Source: Haloarchaeobius iranensis
GTDB lineage: Archaea; Halobacteriota; Halobacteria; Halobacteriales; Natrialbaceae
Length of the DNA stretch: 64,000 nucleotides
NCBI RefSeq assembly: GCF_900103505.1
Contig: NZ_FNIA01000011.1
Location: forward strand, 1-64,000
Reading direction: 5' to 3'
The notes under the pieces are model-generated. The model was not told the origin of the DNA, did no database searches, and saw only the letters and a program-made list of their open reading frames with translations. The position numbers were made by a program, and so were the translations under genes. Within the stretch, counting starts at the first letter, position 1, and each line of letters opens with the position of its first letter. Positions 55,063-60,304 of the stretch are shown in pieces.

Positions 55063-55110
55063 ATGAGTGCTGCGAGCCAGTCGGCGGCGACGCCGGGAGC
55101 GTACAGATGA
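55063..55110 (+). CDS. Candidate leaderless mini-ORF coupled to kdgK
   Basis: A 15-codon ORF, MSAASQSAATPGAYR, begins where the transcript from the box at 55034 should start, and its stop TGA (55108-55110) overlaps the kdgK ATG as ATGA. Its frame differs from kdgK. Leaderless AUG recognition followed by termination-reinitiation would deliver ribosomes to kdgK. The arrangement recurs at cetZ. Confidence 0.5.
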   Translation: MSAASQSAATPGAYR

Positions 55111-56063
55111 GCGACGACCTCGTGACGTTCGGCGAGTCCATGCTGCGACTGTCACCGCCGGGGAACGAGCGGCTGGAGACGACCGGGGAGCTGGCGGTCC
55201 ACGCCGCCGGCGCGGAGTCCAACACCGCCATCGCGGCCGAGCGACTGGGTGCGAAGGCGTCCTGGCTGTCGAAGCTGCCGGACACGTCGCCGGGCCGACG
55301 CATCGCGAACGGCATCCGCCAGCACGACATCACGACCGACGTGGTGTGGGCGGAGGAGGGCCGTCCGGGGGCGTACTACCTCGAACACGCCGGCAAGCCA
55401 CGCGGGACGAACGTCGTCTACGACCGTGCCGACTCCGAGTTCTCCACCGCCGCCGCCGAGGAGTTCAACCTCGACCGGGTCCGCAACGCGACCGCCTTCT
55501 ACACGACGGGGATCACGCCCGCGCTCTCCGAGCAGATGCGCGAGACGACCGTCAACATGCTGAGCGTCGCCCGAAACGCCGGGACGATGGTCGCCTTCGA
55601 CGTGAACTACCGGCGCAAGCTCTGGGAGCCCGAGGCGGCCCGGAACACTATCACGCGGCTGTTCCCGGCCATCGACGTGCTCGTCATCGCGGCGAAGGAC
55701 GCCGAGGCCGTGCTCGACTACGACGGGGAGCCGACCCAGCTCGCCCACCATCTCGCCTCCGAGTACGAGTTCCGGACCGTCGTCGTCACCCGCGGGGCAC
55801 ACGGCGCGGTCGCCATCCACGACAACGTCGTCCACGAGCAGGAGGCCTTCGAGACCGACACCCACGACCCCATCGGCTCCGGCGACGCCTTCACCGGCGC
55901 GTTCCTCGCCCGGCGGCTCTCCGGCGACGACGTGGGGCGCGCGCTGAAGTACGCCACCGCGACCGCCGCGCTCAAGCGGACCATCCCGGGCGACGTGGCC
56001 ACCGTCAGCAAGTCCGAGGTCGACGCCATCGTCGCCGACCGCACCGAGGACATCTCGCGCTGA
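55107..56063 (+). CDS. kdgK: 2-keto-3-deoxygluconate kinase (PfkB family)
   Basis: A 318-residue sugar kinase. The N-terminal VTFGESMLRLSPPGNERLE and AGAESNTAIAAERLGA match ribokinase-type KDG kinases. The C-terminal signature DPIGSGDAFTGAFLARRL (about 254-271) includes the catalytic aspartate. It phosphorylates KDG in the semi-phosphorylative Entner-Doudoroff pathway used by haloarchaea. Its ATG overlaps the end of a leaderless 15-codon ORF. No other pathway genes are in the window. Confidence 0.88.
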   Translation: MSDDLVTFGESMLRLSPPGNERLETTGELAVHAAGAESNTAIAAERLGAKASWLSKLPDTSPGRRIANGIRQHDITTDVVWAEEGRPGAYYLEHAGKPRGTNVVYDRADSEFSTAAAEEFNLDRVRNATAFYTTGITPALSEQMRETTVNMLSVARNAGTMVAFDVNYRRKLWEPEAARNTITRLFPAIDVLVIAAKDAEAVLDYDGEPTQLAHHLASEYEFRTVVVTRGAHGAVAIHDNVVHEQEAFETDTHDPIGSGDAFTGAFLARRLSGDDVGRALKYATATAALKRTIPGDVATVSKSEVDAIVADRTEDISR

Positions 56064-58834: not shown

Positions 58835-59071
58835 ATGGCTGCGTATCTGAGTACCACCGTGATGCTGCTGGGGCTCGTCGTCTCGCTCGGCTCCGGCTGG
58901 TACATCGCGAAGGGACCGTTCTTCGGGTTCGGCACACCCCCGTTACCCTACATTCTGGCCGCGACGGGGCTCTTCGTCTTCGGCATCATCGTCTTCGGCT
59001 GGGGGTTGAGCAGTCGCATCGACGCCGGACGCGGCGACGAGCGCGTCATCCCCAGCAACGAGAAGGTTTAG
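58835..59071 (+). CDS. Small two-helix membrane protein
   Basis: A 78-residue protein with hydrophobic segments at about 5-25 and 38-57 and a polar C-terminus SSRIDAGRGDERVIPSNEKV. The box AACTTTAATC 27 bases before the ATG supports the start. Its stop codon overlaps that of cetZ on the opposite strand. Function unknown. Confidence 0.75.
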   Translation: MAAYLSTTVMLLGLVVSLGSGWYIAKGPFFGFGTPPLPYILAATGLFVFGIIVFGWGLSSRIDAGRGDERVIPSNEKV

Positions 59072-60231
59072 AACAGCGGCGTCAGCTCCTCGTCGCCGTC
59101 GTCCAGCAGCGCCTCCAGGTTCGCGTCGGACTGCGAGCGGATCTCCTCCAGGTTCTCCATCGCCTCGATGGCGACCTGCTGGAGCCCCTTGATGCGTGGC
59201 ACGTCGGTCACGCCCGACAGCAGCACCACGCAGGCGACCGAGTGCTCGTCCGGCAGCGGGTAGTCCCCGCCGCGGATCTCCATCGAGCCGGTCTGCTCCT
59301 CCAGCCACCGCCGGCCGTGCTCGATGCCCTTCCGGTTGAGGTAGTCCGGCGGCCCGGCCACGACGAGTAACCCCCGTTCCACGCCGTTCAGCTCGCAGGG
59401 CAGCGTGAGGCGGCCGAGGGCGGCCTTCCGGACGAGCGAGGTGATACGGTTCGTCGTGTCGGTCTCGTCCAGCTCCTTCGTCGAGAACCTGGAGAACAGC
59501 CCGCCCTTCTCGCACTCGACGTGGTCGATGGCGTAGCCGATGGTCGAGACGCCGCCGCTGCCGAGCGTGTTGATGATCTCCGAGGCGTCGACGACCGACT
59601 CGCCGACCGCGCCGCCCTCGTCGACCTCGCCCGCGCCGAACAGCACCGCGAGCCGACGCACCAGCTCCTCGTTGATGTCCGCGTAGCCCTCGCCCAGCGA
59701 CTCGCCGGTGTGCCGCCACGACTCGTTGTCGAAGACGATGAGGTTGTCCACCTCGCGGACGAACGTCTGGAACGACCGCGCCGCGTTCAGCGTGTACAGC
59801 CCACCCTCGTCCGAGCCCGGCAGGATGCCCAGCCCGTAGACGGGTTCCTCGTACAGTCGCTTCAGGTGCTTCGCCAGCACCGGCGCGCCGCCCGAGCCGG
59901 TGCCGCCGCCGAGTCCGGCGACGATCATGAACGCGTCGACCTCGTGGACGGGCACGTCGTCGAGCGCGGCCTGTATCTCCTCGACGTCCTCCTCGGCGAC
60001 CTCCGCGCCGAGTTCGTTGTCCGCGCCGACGCCGTGTCCTTTCACCCTGGTCTGGCCGACGAGGACCTGCTTGTCCTTCGGGATGTGCTGCAGCCCGCGG
60101 AGGTCGGCCGTCGCCGTGTTCACCGCGATGGCCGCACGGACGGTCTTCCCCCGGGTCTGCCGGTCGAACTCGACGAACCGGTCGACGACCTTCCCGCCCG
60201 CCTGGCCGAAGCCGATCATCACGAGCTTCAC
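59068..60231 (-). CDS. cetZ: CetZ tubulin-like cytoskeletal protein
   Basis: A 387-residue GTP-binding protein of the FtsZ/tubulin superfamily. The N-terminal GFGQAGGKVVDRF and the tubulin signature GLGGGTGSG (107-114) bind GTP, and DNESW and the NRITSLVRKAALGRLTLPCE region fit CetZ1-type proteins, which control haloarchaeal cell shape and motility. The start is GTG 60231, which overlaps the stop of a 14-codon upstream ORF as GTGA. Transcription should start about 41 bases upstream, at that ORF's ATG. Confidence 0.93.
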   Translation of the reverse strand: MKLVMIGFGQAGGKVVDRFVEFDRQTRGKTVRAAIAVNTATADLRGLQHIPKDKQVLVGQTRVKGHGVGADNELGAEVAEEDVEEIQAALDDVPVHEVDAFMIVAGLGGGTGSGGAPVLAKHLKRLYEEPVYGLGILPGSDEGGLYTLNAARSFQTFVREVDNLIVFDNESWRHTGESLGEGYADINEELVRRLAVLFGAGEVDEGGAVGESVVDASEIINTLGSGGVSTIGYAIDHVECEKGGLFSRFSTKELDETDTTNRITSLVRKAALGRLTLPCELNGVERGLLVVAGPPDYLNRKGIEHGRRWLEEQTGSMEIRGGDYPLPDEHSVACVVLLSGVTDVPRIKGLQQVAIEAMENLEEIRSQSDANLEALLDDGDEELTPLF

Positions 60232-60272
60232 TGCTGACCCACCCCGGGGAATCGCGCCGGTACTGTACTCAT
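60228..60272 (-). CDS. Candidate leaderless mini-ORF coupled to cetZ
   Basis: A 14-codon ORF, MSTVPARFPGVGQQ, begins at ATG 60272, 28 bases after the centre of the box ATTTATCT, and ends with a TGA (60230-60228) overlapping the cetZ start as GTGA. It is in a different frame from cetZ. The layout is the same as at kdgK. Confidence 0.5.
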   Translation of the reverse strand: MSTVPARFPGVGQQ

Positions 60273-60296
60273 AGCGACCAGTTACGTTCCCCGAGG

Positions 60297-60304
60297 AGAT
60301 AAAT
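60297..60304 (-). promoter_or_regulatory. cetZ promoter
   Basis: The minus strand reads ATTTATCT. Its centre lies 28 bases before ATG 60272, placing the transcript start at the mini-ORF rather than at cetZ. Confidence 0.6.

Follow-up and report, generated by a model that had tools for sequence, protein, structure and literature searches.

The second cetZ1-like gene of Haloarchaeobius iranensis is preceded by a mini-ORF of 14 codons, with its ATG at the predicted 5' end of the transcript and its TGA overlapping the GTG of cetZ. The best explanation for this arrangement, to which a probability of about 80% is assigned, would be that ribosomes start leaderless on the mini-ORF AUG, stop at the UGA and initiate again on the cetZ GUG that overlaps it. 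At the level of the DNA, the layout itself, the conservation of the putative box, the ATG, the frame and the overlap, the turnover of the peptide and the recurrence of the arrangement at other genes are directly seen. The elements concerned are located as follows in the window, i.e. the whole analysed stretch of 64,000 nucleotides:

60297..60304, minus strand: TATA-like promoter box ATTTATCT (from the sequence and the orthologous leaders)
60228..60272, minus strand: mini-ORF of 14 sense codons plus TGA (peptide MSTVPARFPGVGQQ), with its ATG at the predicted transcript start
60272-60270, minus strand: start ATG of the mini-ORF (from the sequence)
60239..60245, minus strand: Shine-Dalgarno (SD)-like GGGGTGG within the mini-ORF, 7 bases 5' of the cetZ GTG
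60230-60228, minus strand: stop TGA of the mini-ORF (from the sequence)
60231-60229, minus strand: start GTG of cetZ (from the sequence)
60228..60231, minus strand: GTGA, in which the cetZ GTG overlaps the mini-ORF TGA (from the sequence)
59068..60231, minus strand: cetZ, 387 codons plus TAA, the second cetZ1-like paralog of the genome (Pfam CetZ_C, Tubulin)
55063..55110, plus strand: mini-ORF of kdgK (peptide MSAASQSAATPGAYR, followed by the stop), ATG at 55063 and ATGA overlap at 55107, the second case in the window
55107..56063, plus strand: kdgK, a carbohydrate kinase of the PfkB family (Pfam)

On the minus strand the region reads TCTGC-ATTTATCT-N24-ATG AGT ACA GTA CCG GCG CGA TTC CCC GGG GTG GGT CAG CAG TGA, and the reading frame of cetZ opens with GTG AAG CTC, overlapping the last codon of the mini-ORF. 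The box, the ATG at 60272, the 14-codon ORF and the GTGA overlap were all found on the minus strand where the earlier note had placed them. The distance of 28 bases from box to ATG given there, however, is only obtained by counting from approximately the middle of the box, whereas the spacer from the end of the box comprises 24 nt. The TTTAT of the box begins 31 bases 5' of the ATG, and the combination TTTATCT-N24-ATG has a single occurrence in the window, compared to none in 100 shuffled versions. The Pfam profiles identify the gene product as CetZ (CetZ_C 1.4e-78, Tubulin 9.6e-34). The named relative, which is 95% identical, comes from a Haloarchaeobius, and a 70% identical paralog in the same genome (G000:C46) resembles canonical cetZ1.

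A TGA in the -1 frame is inherent to every GTG-AAR or ATG-AAR start. Since the stop of the mini-ORF is forced by the start codon in this way, the TGA does not represent independent evidence, and information is contained only in the ATG, the box-to-ATG distance, the frame and the absence of stops. These properties were compared in orthologous leaders. In a tree of 112 CetZ proteins, sequences from Haloarchaeobius and Halorubellus form a window-type group that is distinct from canonical cetZ1; the group consists of nine rows with seven distinct leaders. Box, ATG, an open ORF of 12-14 codons and GTGA were kept in all seven, with the start of the box 29-36 bases 5' of the mini-ORF ATG. The distances from ATG to GTG of 41, 35 and 35 all equal 2 mod 3. 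The peptides are unrelated between the lineages (MSTVPARFPGVGQQ, MVHIRSSGGVPK and MIHEGSVRGERA), and the CetZ proteins of the three lineages are merely 78-80% identical to the CetZ of the window. Altogether, the mini-ORF architecture is conserved more than the peptide and, judged from these leaders, the layout at cetZ is not due to chance. As the layout is kept in relatives while the peptide changes, the mini-ORF probably passes ribosomes to cetZ.

In every leader of the window type, GGGGTG or GAGGTG is positioned 7-8 nt 5' of the GTG. The pairing of these SD-like motifs with the 16S 3' end ranges from -11.1 to -14.1 kcal/mol and belongs to the strongest 1-5% of the starts of the sampled genome. 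For the GGGGTGG of the window gene, a value of -11.4 kcal/mol was computed; of 354 gene starts sampled from the DNA of the same organism, 4.5% pair as strongly.

According to the proposed mechanism, the cetZ mRNA would begin at A60272, give or take a few bases, and thus with the AUG of the mini-ORF. The ribosome would initiate leaderless on this AUG, translate the 14 codons and terminate at the UGA (60230-60228). It would then reinitiate on the cetZ GUG that overlaps this stop, probably with the help of the SD-like GGGGUGG immediately 5' of it. In this model, the mini-ORF would act as a ribosome loader, in which the frame, the start and the stop/start junction are selected and the peptide is not, and the synthesis of CetZ would depend on it. 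Such a dependence of cetZ translation on the translation of the leader ORF would agree with the coupling and SD results published for Haloferax volcanii, where strict termination-reinitiation coupling was observed in nine of nine overlapping pairs (Huber et al. 2019, PMC6728339). Deletion of the SD inside the upstream gene cut reinitiation by approximately 20-80% in six of seven pairs in this organism and raised it in one. The tested pairs share with cetZ the ATGA or NTGA overlap, the SD in the upstream ORF and the haloarchaeal ribosomes; both the overlap of stop and start and an SD-like motif within the upstream ORF, which is common and not essential for termination-reinitiation, are present at cetZ. 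In contrast, the pairs of H. volcanii are gene/gene pairs, while the upstream ORF of the present cases comprises 4-20 codons, starts at a predicted transcript start and has no conserved product.

The same layout was found at further genes. When the window was scanned for a box and an ATG-initiated mini-ORF running into the start of a long ORF, exactly two places emerged, cetZ and kdgK. The loci of kdgK, of an ABC permease and of lysS (class I) were fetched by their downstream protein only, so that the presence of a mini-ORF played no part in their choice. At kdgK the layout was kept in 11 of 12 leaders, namely in six of six Haloarchaeobius and in five of six more distant genomes of the family (ATG-to-start lengths of 32, 44, 47 and 50); the leader L303 contains no ATG. 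The permease retained it in six of six cases (35, 44 and 59), and lysS in eight of eight with an own promoter (35, 47 and 59), the gene being apparently located directly behind another gene in four other genomes. Within the genus, the mini-ORF and an NTGA are conserved at the permease (L241:16984-18038) and at lysS (L252:15130-16841, minus strand), and the lysS layout is present in Halorubellus, too (L294, L296). Furthermore, a candidate mini-ORF of 12 codons with a GTGA overlap (MISGEPVQGAAQ) was noticed in the congener G005 (L278, around 1359, plus strand).

With regard to the frame, the box-positioned ATGs were located in the coupling frame in 7/7 cases for cetZ, 11/11 for kdgK, 6/6 for the permease and 8/8 for lysS, i.e. 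in 25 of 25 for the three latter genes, where the lengths of 32-59 all equal 2 mod 3. Within each of the four families, the ATG-to-start lengths differ by multiples of three only. The distance between box and ATG amounts to 29-37 nt overall; in almost every leader of kdgK and lysS it is 30 nt. The SD-like sequences at the junctions belong to the strongest 1-11% of starts, approximately, in the sets of cetZ, permease and lysS, and the pairing at the kdgK junctions of close congeners is merely middling. The statement of the earlier note that these leaders have their architecture in common, and not their peptide, is strongly supported, since the architecture is conserved across genera at cetZ and kdgK and recurs at least at lysS and at the ABC permease, and at cetZ1 of the Haloferacaceae.

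The frequency of the layout was determined in 403 kb of the own genome, sampled in stretches with 356 called genes, and in 400 kb of a congener. In the 403 kb, the cases with ATG were cetZ, the ABC permease (L241) and lysS (L252), and these three stand among 66 matches over all triplets, compared to approximately 1.1 expected per sense triplet. The raw excess, which had been proposed before as a measure for the whole genome, is no more than weak in this sampled part. For the two genomes outside cetZ, six ATG cases among 79 matches were counted, these counts not being independent, and the flanks of diverse cetZ loci contained no ATG among seven layout matches. Both the modest excess and the automatic stop would be compatible with an ATG placed by accident, whose stop is supplied by the forced TGA of GTG-AAR. 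Pure chance is nevertheless highly improbable, because different genera share the layout, and its length varies in five gene families in ways that preserve the frame. Of the 12 minimum length changes over these families, at least 11 are multiples of three, corresponding to a binomial P of approximately 5e-5 at a probability of 1/3 each. In addition, the ATG pattern was kept in three of three ortholog pairs between the own genome and G005, compared to two of 14 for other triplets, both within the same genes. It is the conservation that carries the case, the excess in the raw counts being modest.

Canonical cetZ1 offers a comparison of leaders with and without the ATG. In many Haloferacaceae, including all sampled Haloferax, the leader of cetZ1 resembles caATGGCGAGGGGACCGAACCTATGAAG, with an ATG at a box distance of 31-32, seven codons and an ATGA overlap. 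Conserved, predicted leaderless mini-ORFs of 5-8 codons (M-x-R-G-...) with ATGA were observed in the upstream regions L034, L038-L055, L058-L063, L072-L078 and L114-L138. Among 144 distinct cetZ1 leaders, 54 box-positioned ATGs were found, 47 of them in the coupling frame and six and one in the others; the coupling-frame lengths were 11, 14, 17, 20 and 23. Leaders with ACGG instead of ATG showed lengths of 8, 12, 13, 18, 19, 20 and 21 and thus all frames, the length being taken here as the distance from the ACGG block, as box-based estimates are noisy. Since the leaders with ATG are bound to the frame and those with ACGG may have any length, it is the ATG and not the leader as such that is tied to the frame. 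In Halolamina pelagica (L103), ACGATG takes the place of the ATGACG of its relative L095, so that the ATG is shifted by one codon with the frame kept. cetZ1 lacks the ATG in Halorubrum, in g58 and in a Halogranum (L098). Two of the six frame-0 cases, L080 and L100 (18 nt), encode the mini-ORF MEWG, which ends at its own TAA six bases before the cetZ1 start; no other cetZ1 leader seen in the Haloferacaceae has a clear leaderless ATG outside the coupling frame.

These data also bear on the possibility that the ATG at the transcript start is an untranslated by-product of a preferred purine at +1. The SD-like GGGGTG 7-8 nt before the GTG in every ortholog and the frequent presence of ACGG in place of ATG in canonical cetZ1 leaders of equal size could be understood in this way. 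However, neither the change of length in threes only with ATG and freely without it nor the absence of in-frame stops would be explained, and an SD in the 5'-UTR is not used for initiation in H. volcanii (PMC3986360). This origin of the ATG is therefore considered unlikely.

Two further observations were made at cetZ loci. At most canonical cetZ1 loci, and in many haloarchaeal families, the TATA-like box is immediately preceded by a conserved block resembling CATCACAAGG, which is possibly an extended BRE or a regulator site. The second cetZ paralog (f1) of most Natrialbaceae, which was left out as a positive case, possesses neither box nor mini-ORF. In its upstream regions (L197-L236) no TATA-like box is visible, and most genomes carry a conserved CGGCCACGAGAGACAACC-like block in the last 25 bases or so, right before the ATG.

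Besides a loader, the mini-ORF could represent a regulatory uORF or attenuator, of which the translation rate or a codon senses a condition and alters the output of cetZ. Its placement matches that of leader-peptide controls, and the earlier note had pointed in this direction. Conserved regulatory codons or a conserved peptide, as expected for an attenuator, were not found; the peptides are not conserved even inside the genus. The predicted folding of the leader RNA was no better than that of shuffled sequences, with z-scores of 0.10, 1.87, 0.06 and 0.46 giving no signal of a structural switch, and no terminator-like site was detected in the leader region by a scan for bacterial promoters and terminators, which is not applicable to archaeal promoters. 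In view of the unconserved peptides and the ordinary folds of the leader RNA, there is no support for a sensing role, nor any sign of regulation as distinct from a steady supply of ribosomes. The identical layout ahead of unrelated housekeeping and transport genes points away from it as well, so that regulation of this kind appears very unlikely.

The loader function preferred here has its closest described counterpart in mycobacteria, whose leaderless small ORFs of the "coupled" type (Shell et al. 2015, PMC4633059) were enriched over random (23/220 compared to 32/1000). There, the transcript starts on the RTG of the small ORF, as predicted from the sequence for the cetZ mini-ORF, the TGA shares bases with the RTG of the following gene (RTGA), and the layout is conserved with a changing peptide. 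In contrast to these bacterial, experimentally mapped cases, the present ones are archaeal, predicted, and equipped with an archaeal TATA-like box and mostly with an SD-like motif inside the mini-ORF. In H. volcanii, transcripts without a leader make up 72% of the protein-coding ones, and GUG is rarely used as a leaderless start, and then only by weakly expressed genes (PMC4983044). Small ORFs of 15-31 aa ahead of normal genes, comparable to the one at cetZ, were described in the same study (Babski et al. 2016, PMC4983044). That search was confined to 5'-UTRs of 150-250 nt and reported no stop/start overlap, whereas the present mini-ORFs fill leaders of approximately 11-59 nt. In the literature searched, the combination of a leaderless mini-ORF with reinitiation at an overlap is not described for archaea, and the titles and abstracts found report no transcript start for cetZ1 of H. 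volcanii.

Going beyond cetZ, it is conceivable, at somewhat less than even odds, that such loader mini-ORFs form a standard further mode of translation start in haloarchaea, concerning about 1% of the genes. They would exploit an SD that is inert alone in a 5'-UTR, let weak GTG starts or leaders make use of a leaderless AUG, and have arisen separately before two cetZ paralogs.

Since haloarchaeal mRNAs are mostly leaderless and the SD in the 5'-UTR is not used in H. volcanii, the retention of SD-like sequences by some leadered genes poses a puzzle. A mini-ORF that hands ribosomes to an SD and NTGA junction would explain these sequences in some leadered haloarchaeal genes, and the annotated 5'-UTRs of such genes would in reality be translated. 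The parallel to mycobacteria would suggest that two lineages with many leaderless transcripts evolved the arrangement convergently. As canonical cetZ1 of Haloferax carries a version of seven codons, the idea is testable in a genetically tractable relative, where it bears on the setting of CetZ levels and hence on cell shape.
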